A stretch of 64,000 bases of DNA from Comamonas halotolerans (lineage in GTDB: Bacteria; Pseudomonadota; Gammaproteobacteria; Burkholderiales; Burkholderiaceae_C), in assembly GCF_030162935.1 (NCBI RefSeq), contig NZ_JASAUZ010000074.1, positions 62,001-126,000 on the forward strand, in the 5' to 3' direction. The notes beneath the pieces were generated by a model, which was not told the origin of the DNA, did no database searches, and saw nothing but the letters and a program-made list of their open reading frames with translations. Each line of letters begins with the position of its first letter. Within the stretch, counting starts at the first letter, position 1. A program made the position numbers and the translations under genes. Below are positions 5,043 through 28,823 of this stretch, piece after piece.

Positions 5043-5369
5043 TCAGGCTTGAATTTGCTCCTTGAGCTTGGTGCTGGCGTGGAAAGTCACCACACGGCGA
5101 GCCTCGATAGGGATCAATTCACCCGTGCGCGGGTTGCGCCCCGGACGAGGTGCCTTGGTTCGCACCTGAAAGTTGCCAAAACCTGAGAGCTTGACCTCTT
5201 CACCCTGCACCAAGCTGCCAGCAATCAGGTCAAAGTAAGCATCGACCATGTCTTTGGCCTCACGCTTGCTCACACCCAGTTGATCAAACAACAGGTCAGC
5301 CAGCTGGGCTTTCGTCAAAGCGCCCACAGCATCCAATTCGCTGCCCATCAAAACTTTGCTCGCTTCCAT
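5043..5369 (-). CDS. ihfA: integration host factor subunit alpha
   Basis: This 108-residue protein is the alpha subunit of IHF, a heterodimeric DNA-bending protein. It shows the HU/IHF fold: [38 protein letters not shown], then the DNA-inserting arm [25 protein letters not shown] with the conserved Pro at the arm tip. The start at 5369 has AAGGA 6 bases upstream. An internal Met at 5348 would also give a normal length. It follows pheT by 8 bases, the pheST-ihfA arrangement also seen in enterics, so it is likely the last gene of the thrS-ihfA transcription block. Confidence 0.95.
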
Positions 5370-5377
5370 GTCTTTCC

Positions 5378-7834
5378 TTAGCTGCGCAAGCGCGCCATCA
5401 CTTGCTCTTGCAAGGCAGCAATCGCGCCCTGCATCGCTGCGTCAATTTCCACGTCGCTCAACGCAGCATCGTCACGCCCCAATGTCAAACGCACCGCCAG
5501 ACTCTTCTCATCTTGCGCCAAACTGCCAGCGACAGCCTCTTCTCCTTGCTTGAGTTTCTTTGGACGGAACACGTCAAACAATACTGCATTACGCAACACA
5601 CCGTTTTGAACACCCGCTGCAATCGCTTGCAGCACTTGAGCGTGGGTCACACTTTCCTTGACGACCACGGCAATATCACGCTCCACCACTTGATGCTTGG
5701 AGACGGGCTGGAAGTTGGGCACTTCGCGCGCCAGCACGGCATCCAGCTCCAACTCAAACAGCACGGGAGCGGAAGTCAAGTCCCAGCTTTGGCGCCATTT
5801 GGGGTGCAACTCGCCCACAAAGCCAATGGCCTTGCCATTGAGCACGACACGCGCACAGCGACCAGGATGCATCGCGGGATGCTCTGCCGCTTCAAAGACG
5901 GGCTTCAAAGGAGCCAGCAGCGCTTCAACATCACCCTTGACGTCGTAGAAGTCAACCTTGGACTCCGCCACGCCCCATTGCTGAGCACTGGCTGCGCCAT
6001 AGGCCAGACCTGCTACACGCATCGGCTGGTTAAAGCCCTTCACCGTGGTGTCAGACTCGACCACGCTGTCATCCCGCAGAAAGACCCGCCCTAACTCGAA
6101 CACTCGCACGCGCGCCGCCTTACGATCCACATTGAACTTCAAGACCTGCATCAGCGAGCCAATCAAGCTTGAGCGCATGACGCTCAACTGGCTGGCAATG
6201 GGGTTAAGCAGCTTGATAGGATTGGTATTGCCAGCCAGTTCCTCTTCCCACTTGGTTTCTACAAACGAGAAATTGATGGTTTCCTGATAGCCCAATGCGG
6301 CCAACTCACGGCGCACCGCGAAAGGACTGCGCTTGTTTTCAGCACGCAGCTTGGGCGAGATAGGAGCCAAGGGCTTGCTTGTCGGCAGATGTTCATAGCC
6401 GATCATGCGTGCAACTTCTTCAATCAGATCTTCTTCCAGATTGATGTCAAAGCGGAAAGTGGGCGCAGTCACGCTGATCACACCTTCTTGAACAACTTCA
6501 GCAGGCAAGCCCAAGCCGTTCAACGCATCCAGACATTGCTGCTGGGTCACGGGCATACCGATCACCTTGGCAGCACGGGCTACACGCAGTTGCACAGGCT
6601 TGGCAGCAGGCATATTGGGTTGCTGGTCGTCCATGGCGCACACTTGCGTCTCCGCCGTACCGCAAATCTCCTGCACCAACTGGGTGATGCGCTCAATGTG
6701 CTCAACGGTGAACGCGGGATCCACGCCACGCTCAAAGCGGTGACCTGCATCCGTGGAGAAATTGAAGTGACGAGAGCGACCCGCCACAGCCTTGGGAAAC
6801 CAGAACGCTGCTTCAATGTAGATGTTCTTGGTATCGTCGGACACAGCAGTGGCATCACCGCCCATGATGCCAGCCAGAGACTCCACCTGCTTGTCATCGG
6901 CAATCACACCTACCTTGGTAAAGCCATCAAACTTCACCGTGTTGCCATTGAGCAGCTTGAGGGTTTCGCCCTCTTTGCCCCAACGCACGGTCAGGCCACC
7001 GCTGATCTTGTCCAGATCAAAAATGTGGCTGGGGCGACCCAGCTCAAACATCACATAGTTCGAGATATCCACCAAGGGGGAAACCGAACGCTGGCCACAG
7101 CGTGCCAAGCGGTCCACCATCCATTGAGGTGTTTTCACCTGTGTGTTCACATTGCGCACAATGCGACCCGTGAAACGCCCACACAAATCTGTGGCTTCAA
7201 TTTTCACAGCCAACCTATCCTGCGAGGTCACAGCCGCTTGCGGATAGTCGATGGCTTGCAATGGCGCACCAGTCAAAGCTGACAGTTCACGCGCAATTCC
7301 GTACACGCTCAGGCAGTGAGCCAGATTCGGGGTCAGCTTCAGTGTGAACAGCGTGTCATCAAGGTTCAGATATTCACGAATGCTCTGCCCCAAAGGCGCA
7401 TCAAGCGGCAACTCCAGCAAGCCACTTGCGTCTTCGTCAATGCCCAGCTCCTTGGCCGAGCACAACATGCCATAGCTTTGCACTCCACGCAGCTTGCCGA
7501 CCTTGATCTTGAACGGTTTGCCATCGGGCCCCGGGGGTAGCTCAGCGCCCACCATGGCGCAAGGAATCTTGATACCCACACGCGCATTCGGCGCGCCACA
7601 GACAATATTCAGCAACTCAGGAGCGCCCACGTCTACCTGGCACACGCGCAGGCGATCTGCATCGGGGTGTTGAGCGGCTTCTTTGATTTCACCAACCACA
7701 ATGCCGGAAAAGGCGGGTGCCACAGGCTCCAGCTCTTCCACTTCCAGGCCGGCCATGGTCAAGGTGTCGGCCAACTGCTGAGTGGTCAGATTGGGGTTGC
7801 AATATTGGCGCAACCAGGATTCAGGAAATTGCAT
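5378..7834 (-). CDS. pheT: phenylalanyl-tRNA synthetase beta subunit
   Basis: This 818-residue protein is the beta chain of the (alpha-beta)2 PheRS that charges tRNA-Phe. It begins [11 protein letters not shown], followed by the tRNA-binding OB domain (about 40-150, with [20 protein letters not shown] and [16 protein letters not shown]). Then come the B3/B4 editing module ([20 protein letters not shown]), the B5 domain ([20 protein letters not shown]), the catalytic-like fold, and a C-terminal ferredoxin-like anticodon-binding domain ([15 protein letters not shown]). Length is typical. It lies 136 bases after pheS. Confidence 0.97.
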
Positions 7835-7970: not shown

Positions 7971-9023
7971 TTACTGGAATTGCGACAAGAAACGAATGTC
8001 GCCATCGAAGAACAGGCGCAAATCGTTCACGCCATAACGCAGCATGGTCAAGCGATCCGGCCCCATGCCAAAGGCAAAGCCAATGTATTTTTCAGGGTCA
8101 AGGCCCATGTTACGCACCACGTTGGGGTGCACCTGACCCGAGCCTGCAACTTCCAGCCACTTTCCCGCCAGAGGACCGCTTTGAAACTGGATGTCGACTT
8201 CAGCCGATGGCTCGGTAAACGGGAAGAAGCTGGGACGGAAACGCAGCACCAGATCATCCTGCTCAAAGAAGGTCTTGCAAAAGTCGGTAAACACCACTTT
8301 CAAGTCTTTGAAGCTGACATTCTCACCAATCCACAGGCCTTCACACTGGTGGAACATGGGCGAGTGGGTTGCATCCGAGTCCACACGATAGGTACGACCG
8401 GGCGCAATAACGCGGATCTCAGGCATACCTTGGCCTGCATCGATCGCATTGCGGTATTTTTTCACGTGCTGCACTGCGTGACGCACCTGCATAGGACTGG
8501 TGTGCGTGCGCAACAGGTTGGGAGCGTGTTCAGTGCCGCCTTCTACATAGAAGGTATCGTGCATCGAACGTGCGGGGTGATCTTCAGGCGTATTCAGCGC
8601 TGTGAAGTTGAACCAGTCGGACTCAATCTCCGGGCCTTCTGCCACATCAAAGCCCATGGAGCCAAAAATGCCCTCGATGCGCTCCAGCGTGATGGAGACT
8701 GGGTGCAAACCACCAGTGCCACGACGACGACCAGGCAAGGTCACATCCAGCACTTCAGCTTTCAGATGGGCCTGCAGCTCCGCATCGGCCAAGGCCTTGC
8801 GGCGAGCGGTCAAGGCCGCTTCAATGGCCTGCTTGGCCACGTTGATGGCGGCACCGCGCGATTTTTTCTCTTCGACGGAAAGCTGCGCCATGCCCTTCAT
8901 GAGCTCGGTCATCTTGCCCGACTTGCCCAGAAACTGCGCTTTGGCATTTTCCAGATCTGCGGGGGTTTGGGCCTGCGCAAACAGTTGTTGCGCGCTTTCG
9001 ACCAGAGAATCCAACTCGTTCAT
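7971..9023 (-). CDS. pheS: phenylalanyl-tRNA synthetase alpha subunit
   Basis: This 350-residue catalytic subunit of PheRS activates phenylalanine and transfers it to tRNA-Phe. An N-terminal coiled-coil (about 1-90) precedes the class II core. Class II signatures include [12 protein letters not shown], the motif-2-like region [31 protein letters not shown], and the motif-3 region [22 protein letters not shown]. It ends SQFQ, as in homologues. It is preceded by rplT and a strong hairpin with a U-run at 9041-9087 that may modulate entry of transcription. Confidence 0.97.
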
Positions 9024-9135: not shown

Positions 9136-9495
9136 TTAAGCAGCCAGCTTGGCCTTCACTTGGTCAACGATTGCTGCAAAAGCAGCCTTGTCGTGCACAG
9201 CGATATCGGCCAGCATCTTGCGGTCGATCTCGATAGCAGCCTTCTTCAGGCCGTTGGCGAATTGGCTGTATGTCAGGCCCAGTTCACGTGCAGCAGCGTT
9301 GATACGAGCGATCCACAGCTGACGGAATACACGCTTCTTGGTACGACGGTCACGGTAGGCGTATTGACCGGCCTTCATCACCGCCTGCTTGGCGACGCGG
9401 AAGACGTTACCGCGGCGACCGCGGAAACCCTTAGCAAGATTCAGAACTTTTTTGTGACGGGCACGGGCCGTTACACCACGTTTGACGCGAGGCAT
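9136..9495 (-). CDS. rplT: 50S ribosomal protein L20
   Basis: This 119-residue protein is L20, a 23S rRNA-binding assembly protein of the large subunit. The sequence begins [18 protein letters not shown] and contains [18 protein letters not shown] and [20 protein letters not shown], all diagnostic. It follows rpmI by 26 bases. In E. coli L20 represses rpmI-rplT translation; I did not identify its binding site here. Confidence 0.98.
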
Positions 9496-9521: not shown

Positions 9522-9725
9522 TTACAGGCCAGCGGAAGGCAACATCTTTGCGATGGAGCCCATATCGCCTTCATGCACGGAGGTAATGCCACGTAGGTGA
9601 CGCTTATTCTTCGTGGTCTTCTTGGTCAAGATGTGACGCTTGAAGGCTTGACCGCGTTTGACGGTACCACCTGGACGAACGCGAAAACGCTTCTTCGCGC
9701 TGCTCTTGGTTTTCATTTTGGGCAT
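9522..9725 (-). CDS. rpmI: 50S ribosomal protein L35
   Basis: This 67-residue, very basic protein starts [20 protein letters not shown] and ends KMLPSAGL, a full-length L35. The open frame extends 24 codons further upstream, but the extension (Pro/Ser/Leu-rich) is not L35-like, and an AGGAG lies just ahead of the Met at 9725. It sits between infC and rplT as in most proteobacteria. Confidence 0.97.
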
Positions 9726-9844
9726 GTGAATGCTCCTGTTTATTGTGCTCGTGAGGCGTTGCGGCAACCCTGCCCCAACTTGTAGGCCCCGAGACACTTC
9801 TTAGTGCCGGTTTGCACCAGCGTTTTAGCAACTCTTGCAAGTTG

Positions 9845-9895: not shown

Positions 9896-10501
9896 TTAGG
9901 CTGCGTTGCTGCTTTGTGCGTTTTCTGCTGCAGGCTTGGCATTGCCAGCCACAGGTTTTTTGCGCGCTGGGGCAATCATCATAACCATTTGACGGCCTTC
10001 CAGCTTGGGAAACTGCTCCACCTGGATGGAGTCCGCCAGTTCATCACGCAGACGATTGAGCAAATCAAGACCCAGTTGCTGGTGCGTAATTTCACGACCG
10101 CGGAAGCGCAAAGTGACTTTCACCTTGTCGCCATCAGCCAAGAAGCGTCGAATATTACGCAGCTTGATGTTGTAGTCGCCATCATCAGTTCCAGGACGGA
10201 ATTTCACCTCCTTGATATCGATAACGGTTTGCTTGGCCTTGGCTTCTGCTGCCTTCTTTTGCTCTTGATACTTGAACTTACCGTAGTCCATCAAGCGGCA
10301 AACAGGAGGGTTTGCAGTGGCGGCAATTTCCACCAAATCAACGTCCAAATCACCAGCCATACGCAGTGCTTCTTGCAACGAAACAATGCCGATAGGCTCA
10401 TTCTCAGGACCGGACAGACGCACTTCTGGCGCCATGATTTCACGGTTCAAACGGTGTTTGCGTTCCTCGCGGTGGCGACGGTCACGAAATTCTGTAGCTA
10501 T
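9896..10501 (-). CDS. infC: translation initiation factor IF-3, probable AUA start
   Basis: This is IF-3, which binds the 30S subunit, prevents premature 50S joining and proofreads start codons. Diagnostic segments are [61 protein letters not shown] and [16 protein letters not shown] place the start at the ATA at 10501 (then ATEFRDRRH), because an AGGG Shine-Dalgarno lies 8 bases ahead. The GTG at 10510 overlaps that Shine-Dalgarno and has none of its own. Rare infC start codons (AUU in E. coli) let IF-3 repress its own translation. The C-terminus beyond about residue 180 is Ala/Lys-rich. Confidence 0.93.
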
Positions 10502-10586
10502 GGCTTTCACCCTAAATTCAAATCGCTACGAAAAGCGTAGCTGCTTGCATTGATGAGACAAGCGCGGCCTAACCGCGCTTACTGCA

Positions 10587-12506
10587 TCAGACTTTGTTGT
10601 TGATATCGTTGGTCAGCAATTCGATGAACGCTTCCACCGACATCACGCCCAAGTCTTTGTTTCCTCGGGCACGCACAGCGACGGTGCCAACCGCTTTTTC
10701 CTTGTCACCTGCGACGAGGATATAAGGCAGCTTCTGCAATGCATGCTCGCGTATTTTATACGTGATCTTTTCGTTGCGCAGGTCAGACACCACCTTAAGG
10801 CTTTGATGAGGCAATGCTTTTTGCACCTTTGCCACAACTTCCTTCACGTAATCGGCCTGCGCATCCGTGATATTGAGCACCGCCACTTGTTCTGGAGCCA
10901 GCCACACGGGCAGTGCGCCAGCAAATTGCTCAACCAGGATGCCGATGAAGCGCTCCAGAGAACCCACGATCGCTCGGTGCAACATCACTGGGCGATGACG
11001 ATTGCCGTCTTCACCCACATACTCTGCATCCAGACGCTCAGGCATGGAGAAGTCCACCTGAATGGTCCCACACTGCCACTGACGACCCAATGCATCCTTC
11101 AAGGTGTATTCAATCTTGGGGCCGTAGAAAGCGCCATCACCCACGGCAATCTGGTATTCGCAGCCCGATGCCTTCAATGCATCAAACAACGCCTTTTCGG
11201 CCTTGTCCCAGATTTCGTCGGAACCAATGCGTGCATCAGGACGGGTTGCCACCTTGTAGATGATGTCGGTAAAGCCAAAGTCAGCATAGACCTTTTGCAC
11301 CAGCTGATTGAAGTTCAGCACTTCTTGCTGAATCTGGTCTTCAGTACAGAAAATGTGACCATCATCCTGAGTAAAGCCACGTACACGCATGATGCCGTGC
11401 AGACCACCCGTGGGCTCATTACGGTGGCATTGGCCGAACTCACCATAGCGCAGCGGCAGATCACGGTAGCTCTTCACACCCTGCTTGAAAATCAGAATGT
11501 GGCCCGGGCAGTTCATGGGCTTCAAAGCGTAATCACGCTTTTCCGACTCGGTCACGAACATGTTGTCACGATACTTGTCCCAGTGGCCGGTCTTTTCCCA
11601 CAAGGTTTTGTCCAGGATCTGGGGCGCCTTAACTTCGTCGTAGCCATTTTCGCGATAGACGCGGCGCATGTACTGCTCAACCTCCTGCCACACGCGCCAG
11701 CCCTTGGGGTGCCAGAACACGGTCCCCGGAGAACACTCGTCGATGTGATACAGGTCCAGCTCACGGCCAAGGCGGCGATGATCGCGCTTTTCCGCCTCTT
11801 CAATGCGTGTGATGTATGCCTGCAGATCTTTCTTGTCGGCCCAGGCAGTGCCATAGATACGCTGCAGCTGCTCGTTTTTGGCATCACCACGCCAGTACGC
11901 TCCAGCCAGCTTGGTCAGCTTGAAGACCTTCAGGAATCGAGTGTTTGGCACGTGAGGGCCACGGCACATGTCCACATATTCCTGGTGATAGTACAAGCCC
12001 ATCGCCTTTTCTTCAGGCATGTCTTCCACCAGACGCAACTTGTAGTCTTCACCGCGCTCTTTGAACACTTTGATGACTTCATCGCGCGGCGTCATTTTTT
12101 TGATGACATCGTAGTCTTGCGCAATCAGCTCTTTCATGCGCGCTTCAATGGCAGCCATGTCCTCGGGCGTAAAGGGGCGCTCGTAAGAAATATCGTAGTA
12201 AAAGCCCTCATCAATCACAGGGCCAATCACCATCTTTGCGCTGGGATACAACTGCTTGACAGCGTGGCCCACCAAGTGCGCACAAGAGTGACGAATGATC
12301 TCTACACCTTCCTGATCCTTGGGAGTGATGATTTGCAGCTTGGCATCCTGCTCGATCGGCTCGCACGCATCCACCAAGCGGCCATTGATCTTGCCTGCAA
12401 CAGTGTTTTTGGCCAAACCAGGACCAATAGCAGCAGCCACTTGCATGACAGTTACCGGGCCTTCAAATTCGCGTTGCGAACCATCGGGAAGTGTGATCTT
12501 TAACAT
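10587..12506 (-). CDS. thrS: threonyl-tRNA synthetase
   Basis: This 639-residue class II synthetase charges tRNA-Thr. Domains in order: an N-terminal TGS domain ([19 protein letters not shown], about 1-60); the editing domain with the zinc-type motif [18 protein letters not shown] (near 70-90) and [11 protein letters not shown] (about 181); the catalytic core with [11 protein letters not shown] (about 333), motif 2 [21 protein letters not shown], and a motif-3 region [15 protein letters not shown]; and a C-terminal anticodon-binding domain (about 540-639). An AAGGAATTCC precedes the ATG. It heads the thrS-infC-rpmI-rplT-pheST-ihfA block and is preceded by an apparent Thr attenuator. Confidence 0.98.
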
Positions 12507-12551
12507 GGAATTCCTTAGCTATCTTTGTATGTAACAGGAGCGCGCAAGCTG

Positions 12552-12671
12552 TGGAAAAAGCAAAGCGCGGAACTTGTCCGCGCTTTCTAGGAAACAACAA
12601 CTCCGGGCAGGCGCGAACTCACAACCTTACTGGCTGTGCAACATCTCCGTGTTCGTCGTTCGCGGTGTCAT
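12552..12671 (-). promoter_or_regulatory. probable threonine transcription attenuator of thrS
   Basis: On the minus strand four mutually exclusive segments can be traced. Segment 1 CGCGAAC (12664-12658) lies inside the leader-peptide Thr codons. It pairs perfectly with segment 2 GTTCGCG (12618-12612). Segment 2 GTTCGCGC can instead pair (8 bp, one G-U) with segment 3 GCGCGGAC (12583-12576). Segment 3 AAAGCGCGGA can pair perfectly (10 bp) with segment 4 TCCGCGCTTT (12571-12562), followed by GCTTTTTCC, an intrinsic terminator. Ribosome stalling at the Thr codons would mask segment 1, favour 2:3 and allow read-through into thrS. The geometry is that of enteric amino-acid attenuators. The structure is seen; the function is inferred. 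Confidence 0.75.
12627..12671 (-). CDS. thrS leader peptide, 14 residues
   Basis: The predicted peptide is MTPRTTNTEMLHSQ, with four Thr in its first eight residues (codons ACA, ACG, ACG, ACG). A Shine-Dalgarno-like GAGAAAGG lies 10 bases ahead. The Thr codons overlap segment 1 of the attenuator, and the stop codon lies 9 bases before segment 2. The size equals enteric leader peptides such as TrpL and PheM. An in-frame ATG at 12716 would give a 29-residue form, but it lies inside the likely -10 box (TAAAAT, 12720-12715). Confidence 0.65.
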   Translation of the reverse strand: MTPRTTNTEMLHSQ

Positions 12672-12714
12672 AACCAGAATGCCTTTCTCGCTCTTGTTGG
12701 TTAGCTCTACGGGC

Positions 12715-12720
12715 ATTTTA
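12715..12720 (-). promoter_or_regulatory. candidate -10 box for the thrS leader transcript
   Basis: TAAAAT matches the sigma-70 -10 consensus at five of six positions. A start about 7 bases downstream would place the leader ATG roughly 37 bases into the transcript. No good -35 hexamer is visible at 16-18 bases upstream (GGGCTT/GGCTTT), so the call is tentative. Confidence 0.4.
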
Positions 12721-12733
12721 ACGCTCTACACAC

Positions 12734-12763
12734 AAAAAAGCCCGTAGCGCTAGAGCTACGGGC
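12734..12763 (-). terminator. intrinsic terminator of aceA
   Basis: GCCCGTAGC and GCTACGGGC form a perfect 9-bp stem with a 6-base loop, followed on the minus strand by TTTTTT. It lies 60 bases past the aceA stop and just upstream of the thrS leader promoter region. Confidence 0.88.
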
Positions 12764-12822
12764 AATGCCAAGTCAAAATTTGACACTGTGCATGCCCTCT
12801 TCACATGCGCAGTGTCACCCTA

Positions 12823-14154
12823 TCAGTGAAACTGCTCTTCTTCGGTAGAACCAGCTAAGGCCTTCACCGAGGACGACCCGCCTTGGATCACTGTCGTCAC
12901 GTCATCAAAATAGCCAGCCCCCACTTCTTGCTGGTGTGACACAAAGGTATAGCCCTTTTCACGAGCAGCAAATTCAGGCTCTTGAATCATCTCCACATAG
13001 TGCTTCATGCCTTCGCCTTGTGCGTATTCGTGAGCGAACTTGAAGGTGTTGTACCAGTTGCTGTGAATGCCAGCCAGGGTAATGAACTGGAACTTGTATC
13101 CCAAAGCAGACAGATCTTCCTGGAAGGATGCTATCTGACTGTCCGACAGGTTCTTCTTCCAGTTAAACGAAGGCGAGCAGTTGTATGAGAGCAGCTTGCC
13201 TGGGCACTCTTTGAGCACCGCCTGAGCAAATTCACGAGCAAAACCAATATCAGGGGTACCCGTCTCGCACCACACCAAATCGGCATATGGCGCATAGGCA
13301 ATACCGCGGCTGATGGCCTGCTCCAGACCGTTCTTGACGCGATAGAACCCTTCTTGCGTACGCTCTCCGGTCAGGAAAGCCTGGTCATTGGCATCGTGGT
13401 TGCTGGTGATCAGGTTGGCTGCTTCAGCATCCGTTCGAGCCAGCACAATGGTGGGAACACCCATCACATCAGCAGCAAAACGGGCCGCAATCAGTTTTTC
13501 AACAGCTTCACGGGTTGGCACCAGCACCTTGCCGCCCATGTGGCCACACTTTTTCACAGCTGCCAGCTGGTCTTCAAAGTGCACACCAGCAGCACCTGCG
13601 GCAATCATGTTCTTCATCAACTCAAAAGCGTTGAGCACACCGCCGAAGCCCGCTTCCGCATCAGCCACGATCGGCAAGAAGTAGTCGATAAAGTCTTTGT
13701 CACCGGGATTGGTGCCACGCGCCCACTGGATCTCGTCGGCACGTGTAAAAGTATTGTTGATACGGCGCACCATGGTTGGCACCGAGTCATAGGCATACAA
13801 GGACTGATCGGGGTACATAGTCTCCGAGGTGTTACCGTCGGCAGCGACTTGCCATCCAGACAGATACACAGCCTCCAGGCCCGCTTTGGCCTGTTGCATG
13901 GCCTGCCCCGCAGAAATGGCGCCAAACGCGTTCACATAGCCCTTCTTGGCACCACCATTGATCTTTTCCCACAGCTTTTCGGCGCCACGCTGGGCCAGTG
14001 TGTATTCGGGACGCAGGCTGCCACGCAAGCGCACCACATCTGCTGCACTGTAACCGCGCCTCACCCCCTTCCAGCGAGGGTTCTGTGCCCAATCCTTTTC
14101 CAAGGCGGCAATTTGCTGTTCACGGCTGAGTTGTTGATTCAAGGATTCGGGCAT
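12823..14154 (-). CDS. aceA: isocitrate lyase
   Basis: This 443-residue enzyme cleaves isocitrate to succinate and glyoxylate, the first step of the glyoxylate shunt used during growth on acetate or fatty acids. It carries the active-site signature [14 protein letters not shown] (about residues 200-215) and the family core [27 protein letters not shown] and [15 protein letters not shown]. The ATG at 14154 is preferred over that at 14166 because GGAG lies 6 bases ahead of it. It is monocistronic, with its own terminator. Malate synthase is not in the window. Confidence 0.97.
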
Positions 14155-28543: not shown

Positions 28544-28609
28544 GATATCTGCCATGCCCAGTTTGGCCGCTGGGTCTTGGACTCAAGCCATAATCGCAGC
28601 TTTTGTTTT

Positions 28610-28823
28610 CCGTGGGAGAGCGAGGCTGTCACTACAGATCAGCCTCCGCCGAAGGCGCAAACTCCCATAATCGCTCAGGCACCCAGCACCACGGAACACT
28701 ATTGCCGACTGGAGAGCAGCCGGGGTTGCCAAAGCAATCAGCCGGTTCACCGAAGGGGCAAGCTGCCGCATGCCGAACATGCGGATTGCTGAAACTCTCA
28801 GGTAAAAGGACAGCGGGAGAGGC
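28610..28823 (+). ncRNA. tandem glycine riboswitch
   Basis: Two consecutive gcvT-type aptamers are visible. The first runs from CCGTGGGAGAGCG to CACGG (P1 CCGTG/CACGG, 28610-28614 with 28690-28694) and contains GCCGAAGGCGCAAACTCCC. The second runs from GGAGAGCAGCC through CACCGAAGGGGCAAGC and GAAACTCTCAGGTAAAAGGA to GGGAGAGGC. The two-aptamer layout with a short linker is the classical glycine form. It precedes a TRIC-family gene, an association already known in beta-proteobacteria. Confidence 0.93.

Follow-up and report, generated by a model that had tools for sequence, protein, structure and literature searches.

Leader-peptide attenuation is a well-known mode of control of amino-acid and synthetase genes, with the trp, his, thr and pheM leaders as examples. 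In the enterobacterial thrL leader, located upstream of thrABC, a Thr-rich leader peptide, competing hairpins and an intrinsic terminator act together to sense Thr-tRNA, and in E. coli the pheM leader, which carries Phe codons, attenuates pheST. The thrS gene of E. coli is instead controlled translationally, through protein binding to an operator in its tRNA-like leader. The thrS leader described here lies in the window, that is, the whole stretch of 64,000 nucleotides of Comamonas halotolerans DNA that was analysed. It shares with thrL the Thr-rich leader peptide, the competing hairpins, the intrinsic terminator and a proposed sensing of Thr-tRNA, and differs from it in that thrL controls the biosynthesis genes thrABC, whereas the present leader precedes thrS. 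It resembles pheM-pheST as a candidate leader-peptide attenuator of an aminoacyl-tRNA synthetase gene, although pheM has Phe codons and another target, and it shares with the E. coli thrS operator the feedback control of the same gene, here by means of a proposed codon-reading transcriptional switch. Judged from its sequence and from computed folding, it is very probably a ribosome-mediated transcription attenuator of thrS that senses charged tRNA-Thr, and the thrS leader of Burkholderiales would thereby be a widespread, well-supported threonine attenuator of the known leader-peptide type.

A leader peptide named thrL was proposed ahead of thrS in Streptomyces lividans (PMC8079986). In the passages of that paper that deal with it, the peptide is given as MKRVRPFLETTPGFVPAR, with two Thr residues, a leaderless transcription start, one hairpin and no U-run (PMC8079986); by eye, the peptide as printed there looks unrelated to the one described here and, going by the same passages, the S. 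lividans thrS leader is weaker than the Burkholderiales one. In a survey of premature terminators, the main text has one mention of the E. coli ThrRS and none of 'thrS' (PMC2965389). For Burkholderiales, no thrS attenuator was found among the matches listed in a search of the open-access literature; the first-pass annotation of this DNA knew of no published description for the group. Comparison of the region 12480-12830 with 4227 Rfam models up to E=5 returned two weak matches, both to sRNA families and below their gathering scores. The Rfam threonine operon leader model did not match the window leader, a T-box was matched neither in the window at the gathering score nor in 12480-12830 up to E=5, and only tRNAs were matched in 14 related loci. 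Rfam 15 is without a matching family for this leader.

Sequence inspection of the window found all elements of an attenuator on the minus strand (to which all coordinates in this and the next paragraph refer) upstream of thrS. The presumed controlled gene, thrS (threonine--tRNA ligase; 12506..10587; TIGR00418, 718 bits), encodes a protein 95% identical to C. aquatica ThrRS. The leader ORF (12671..12627, 45 bases including the stop codon) is predicted to encode MTPRTTNTEMLHSQ, a short peptide rich in the amino acid that would be sensed, with Thr at residues 2, 5, 6 and 8, which agrees with the four Thr in eight residues counted in the first-pass annotation. Segment 1, CGCGAAC (12664..12658), lies within codons 3-5 and is invariant in 47 aligned sequences (see below); it pairs perfectly with the GTTCGCG part (12618..12612) of segment 2, GTTCGCGC (12618..12611). 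Segment 2 can alternatively pair, with one G-U, with the antiterminator partner segment 3, GCGCGGAC (12583..12576), which overlaps the 5' arm of the terminator. This predicted intrinsic terminator, located between the leader ORF and thrS (12586-12555), consists of a perfect 10-bp 3:4 hairpin with a CAAGT loop (12586..12562; arms AAAGCGCGGA, 12586..12577, and TCCGCGCTTT, 12571..12562) directly followed by GCTTTTT. These pairings were all as first described from the letters; the distance from the end of the U-run (12559..12555) to the thrS ATG, given there as 46 bases, is 48. In both sequence and folding, 1:2, 2:3 and 3:4 are mutually exclusive, and segment 1 would lie under a stalled ribosome. 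Three further features go beyond those listed in the first-pass annotation: a 7-bp hairpin, CACAGCC-AGTAA-GGTTGTG (12638..12620), nested within the 1:2 structure and holding the stop codon of the leader in its loop; a -10-like box of the presumed thrS promoter, TAAAAT (12715..12720), read from the sequence and absent from the list of a consensus promoter scan; and AGAAAGG (12682..12688), 10 nt upstream of the leader ATG and conserved in relatives, which we take to be the Shine-Dalgarno (SD) sequence of the leader ORF and which would be complementary to the 3' tail of the 16S rRNA. The minimum free energy of the whole leader gave no signal against shuffles on either strand (z -0.70), and because the whole leader folds no better than shuffles, the case for it rests on conservation.

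Upstream of thrS lies aceA (isocitrate lyase), behind which a terminator scan found a terminator-like hairpin (12763..12740), suggesting from the sequence that thrS has its own transcription unit. Downstream, infC (9896..10510; gene match) directly follows as the next gene, and behind it come, all on the same strand as thrS and in this order, rpmI (inside 9522-9797), rplT (9136-9495), pheS (7971-9023), pheT (5378-7834) and an ihfA-like ORF (5043-5369), of which rplT and pheS were assigned by gene match and rpmI, pheT and the ihfA-like ORF were judged from translation only. Elsewhere in the window, on the plus strand, a glycine riboswitch aptamer (RF00504, 58.5 bits) was found at 28603-28701.

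In the proposed mechanism, scarcity of charged tRNA-Thr would cause the ribosome to stall on Thr codons 2, 5, 6 and 8, covering segment 1. Segment 2 would then pair with segment 3 once the latter is transcribed, the terminator would come too late, and thrS would be transcribed. When tRNA-Thr is charged, the ribosome would reach the stop codon, melt the stop-codon hairpin and cover the start of segment 2 or, alternatively, it would leave and 1:2 would re-form; segment 3 would then pair with segment 4, and transcription would end before thrS. Translation of the leader, stalling, termination and the physiological response are steps that we infer from this arrangement.

Conservation of the ORF among relatives had been set beforehand as a test of this idea, and the ORF start and the Thr codons turned out to be kept across much of the family. 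A pattern describing the ORF start with GAAAGG ahead of it matched 142 of 200 family genomes (104 of 141 genera), with a single match in each but one, which had two; in its strict form it was absent from the other 58. The reversed control pattern matched 2 of 200 (hand count). A looser pattern matched 15 of 276 genomes at the class level, comprising G000 and G002 at the leader, G154 elsewhere, and 12 of the 273 genomes outside the order, in 11 of which thrS and the match lie on different contigs and in one of which no thrS was found; its reversed control matched 26 of the 276 (hand count). One locus per genus was fetched for 100 genera, and 147 leaders were parsed, of which 142 are distinct and five are duplicates; the parser failed on 7 of 124 genome loci (L085, L120, L143, L148, L172, L201, L204) and on 6 of 35 named MTPRT loci (L003-L006, L023, L038). 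Among 54 named loci taken as betaproteobacterial, which were chosen by title from 80 named loci and include a few whose titles name no class, 35 have an MTPRT leader and three, from Ralstonia, have MIxAPRTTTASERQ. Additionally, 53 of 144 leaders have a -10-like box between 85 and 25 nt ahead of their ATG, with a cluster near -49; among shuffles, the proportion is 3%.

At the order level, 118 genomes had a thrS match, 90 of which were read, and one locus (L279) was not orientable; the 551-base loci among them were oriented by a PDG-type motif, so the orientation may be wrong for a few. A Thr-rich ORF was judged to be a leader in 15 of the 89 thrS upstream regions, the window's own included, from nine families, three further loci (L262, L265, L289) were doubtful, and a clear leader was judged absent in 74 of the 89. 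The leaders from other families include some without MTPRT, namely MFRTSTTTQS, MQRTSTKTITYLG, MLKTDTTTLMISG and MQLNRTTTTS. In three sequences of one family, the 5'-UTR pairs with the region preceding the terminator, each time by means of other bases (ATCAAGCTC/GAGCTTGAT, ATCAAACTC/GAGTTTGAT and GAATCAGA/TCTGATTC).

The enrichment in Thr was counted from residue 6 onward, since the search pattern itself fixed MTPRT. Across 125 distinct peptides, Thr makes up 290 of 1097 residues beyond residue 5 (26.4%) in the frame of the leader, compared with 1.8% and 2.5% in the two other frames, 4.0% downstream and 7.3% expected from base composition. All four Thr codons are used at these positions; therefore, the amino acid is what is kept. 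These Thr codons, the conserved ORF start and the terminator support the first-pass proposal that thrS would be attenuated by charged tRNA-Thr.

By rule, 140 of 142 distinct leaders (145 of the 147 parsed) have a terminator between the leader stop codon and thrS, that of L054 being doubtful, and the two leaders missed by the rule (L013 and L178) show by eye a longer-loop hairpin followed by a T-run. Covariation was assessed on an alignment of 47 of the 53 leaders that carry TTCGCG in segment 2, the criterion by which this Comamonas/Acidovorax-like group was selected; L011, L114 and L119 were left out by name and others by spacing or identity. In these 47 sequences, 5 of the 6 pairs of the helix around the stop codon have changed on both sides, and 94.7% of cells are paired. 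The structure including this helix has a covariation score of 0.230, compared with 0.113 for shuffled alignments (reached by 0 of 500) and a maximum of 0.074 when slid; of five measures, one (how many pairs have changed on both sides) was reached in 29 of 500 shuffles. The stop-codon hairpin scores at least 5 in 43 of 53 leaders inside the subgroup vs 7 of 87 outside it and is, on this sequence comparison, a feature of the Comamonas/Acidovorax-like subgroup. For the terminator, the covariation score is 0.090 vs 0.042 shuffled, with covariation at the top pair only, and its count of pairs with both-sided changes was equalled by 340 of 500 shuffles. The outer 1:2 helix shows no covariation and is invariant in the 47 sequences, partly owing to the selection for TTCGCG, and the 2:3 helix, paired in 97.9% of cells, is nearly invariant and does not exceed shuffles. 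The prediction that the competing stems would be kept in relatives was borne out, with reservations: the terminator is conserved and the stop-codon hairpin covaries in the subgroup, whereas 1:2 and 2:3 are conserved without covariation.

Further comparisons of the pairings used 139 leaders, from which the two without a terminator by rule and L054 were excluded. In these, 1:2 and 2:3 have better duplex energies than dinucleotide-shuffled middle regions give, with a mean z of -1.10 and -1.27, respectively, although taken singly only 33 and 42 leaders have p<0.05. The middle region contains CGCG in 77 of 93 genera, compared with 23% in shuffles. Swapping segment 3 between the 93 genera revealed no significant coupling (p=0.076), nor did swapping the ORF for the 1:2 pairing (p=0.071), in which a leader's own ORF pairs slightly worse than foreign ones; we accordingly make no claim that 1:2 or 2:3 covaries across genera. 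Our reading is that a common CGCG core would make the segments mutually complementary and their exact partners interchangeable.

The switch was also examined by folding transcripts truncated at the end of segment 3, when the choice between the structures is made, with the stall modelled at Thr5. Over the 139 leaders, the mean probability that segment 3 is sequestered was 0.30 without a ribosome and 0.75 with the ribosome stalled at Thr5, compared with 0.58 and 0.67 when the middle region was shuffled; the Wilcoxon p of ~1e-20 for the natural-versus-shuffled difference overstates independence, the 139 leaders being related. As these values indicate, segment 3 of the natural leaders stays free unless segment 1 is covered, as an attenuator would require. 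For 18 leaders that are divergent or come from outside the family, among them three Ralstonia loci, the effect of the stall was marginal (p=0.067). In the window leader, segment 3 without a ribosome was sequestered with a probability of 0.55, partly by segment 1, and a stall at Thr6 gave the full 8-bp antiterminator and left the stop-codon hairpin formed. When the ribosome was placed at the stop codon, covering 15 nt, only four pairs were left in the best structure. Counting footprints of 12, 15 and 18 nt from the first base of the stop codon, the probabilities for this ribosome-at-stop state were 0.67, 0.58 and 0.55 over the 139 leaders and 0.81, 0.51 and 0.61 for the window; in these models the state is weakly separated and is the step least supported by computation. 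Equilibrium folding of the window leader prefers the terminator even in the stalled state, and the switch must therefore be kinetic. What the present analysis shows is the parts themselves, their conservation, the enrichment in Thr codons and, by computation, what happens when segment 1 is covered.

Two other explanations of the locus were considered. The gene concerned is the same as in the autogenous control of E. coli, where ThrRS represses its own mRNA, and ThrRS could likewise bind a tRNA-like leader and block translation here, the small ORF being incidental. The terminator survey briefly mentions the E. coli protein as regulating itself (PMC2965389). However, the enrichment of Thr codons in one frame is left unexplained by such an operator, the hairpin loop of the Comamonas subgroup holds a stop codon instead of an anticodon-like NGU (by eye), the leader has no Rfam match, and the distance from the end of the terminator stem to the thrS start (median 32 nt, range 15-95, in the 93-genus set) leaves little room in about half of the leaders, so that we regard this type of control as very improbable. 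A plain terminator of the upstream unit, namely a tRNA-Val gene in several relatives and aceA here, accompanied by a chance ORF, would account for the position of the hairpin behind a tRNA-Val(GAC) gene in some families and for its retention in relatives without the leader ORF, but aceA has the terminator-like hairpin of its own mentioned above, with a -10-like box between it and the leader, and neither Thr enrichment nor a conserved SD sequence nor covariation of the stop-codon hairpin is expected of a chance ORF, which makes this explanation, too, highly unlikely. Both were set aside.

A different sensor is conceivable within the same architecture, in that the leader could sense translation through an arrest-type nascent peptide (MTPRT) or through the state of initiation, and not the charging of tRNA-Thr. 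This would agree with MTPRT and its nucleotides being almost frozen in the parsed family leaders (the search pattern fixed the peptide and not the third positions). More distant leaders, however, drop MTPRT and keep the Thr richness, and the frozen stretch corresponds to the first five codons, which would be translated before the nascent chain could fill the exit tunnel; there is very little likelihood of such a sensor. Attenuation in response to charged tRNA-Thr is the preferred reading, and pairing alone leaves the near-frozen start block unexplained. Codons 2-5 are nearly frozen at the nucleotide level across the parsed family leaders, which were found by a pattern that fixes the MTPRT peptide but not third codon positions. 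Codon 2 is ACA in 124 and codon 5 is ACT in 105 of the 125 peptides, and these make up 3.9% (ACA) and 4.9% (ACT) of the Thr codons in 29 thrS genes of the named loci; codons 2, 4 and 5 of the leader are all rare codons in the thrS genes of related genomes. From genus to genus the frozen 5' block, AGAAAGGCA ... GGTTATGACACCGCGAAC, is retained, whereas segment 2, with which it pairs, varies. The trp leader of Sinorhizobium reportedly acts in trans on other mRNAs. The frozen block, more constrained than attenuation would need, could have a second role of this kind, with the terminated RNA or MTPRT acting in trans on other mRNAs, or its rare codons could be tuned to several Thr isoacceptors, a speculation that we consider rather unlikely to hold.

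Some relatives are without the leader or have a different one. Six Limnohabitans-like loci (L008, L010, L019, L032, L039, L052) are without the ORF and keep a GC hairpin with a U-run, located ahead of thrS and shortly after the TAAAAT box that is the presumed thrS promoter. Among family genomes at least 90% complete, counted by hand, the pattern is absent in 22 of 30 genomes of up to 3.1 Mb vs 24 of 149 larger ones (Fisher p=1.5e-9, kinship ignored). A Polaromonas MAG (L050) has the conserved 5' block and the hairpin, with ATA instead of the leader ATG, and its leader is possibly decaying. In nine Xanthomonadaceae loci (L016, L020, L024, L035, L036, L037, L040, L053, L057), the region upstream of thrS carries a different, strongly conserved block, GGTGGCCCGCGG...GGCCGAGCGTGCGACATG, which encodes, for example, MSTTIAHR and behind which 7 of the 9 show by eye a GC hairpin and a T-run; going by its sequence, this block is a possible second, unrelated Thr leader. 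A further observation concerns synteny: 13 of 14 order-level loci (L211, L237, L245, L251, L261-L264, L271, L284, L285, L289, L290) have a tRNA-Val(GAC) gene near thrS, which is no frequency since the 14 were hand-picked, partly for a visible tRNA. The same gene was seen by eye near thrS in L018 and L020, outside the order, and this proximity possibly represents an old synteny.

If the proposed attenuator is real, an essential tRNA synthetase gene would be under the control of tRNA charging across a large group of Burkholderiales, and the translation operon behind thrS would perhaps be included in that control. To our knowledge, control of thrS was known only from E. coli. The relatives that are without the ORF and carry the terminator hairpin, together with the Xanthomonadaceae ORF, would then offer a case in which to study the gain, replacement and loss of synthetase control.
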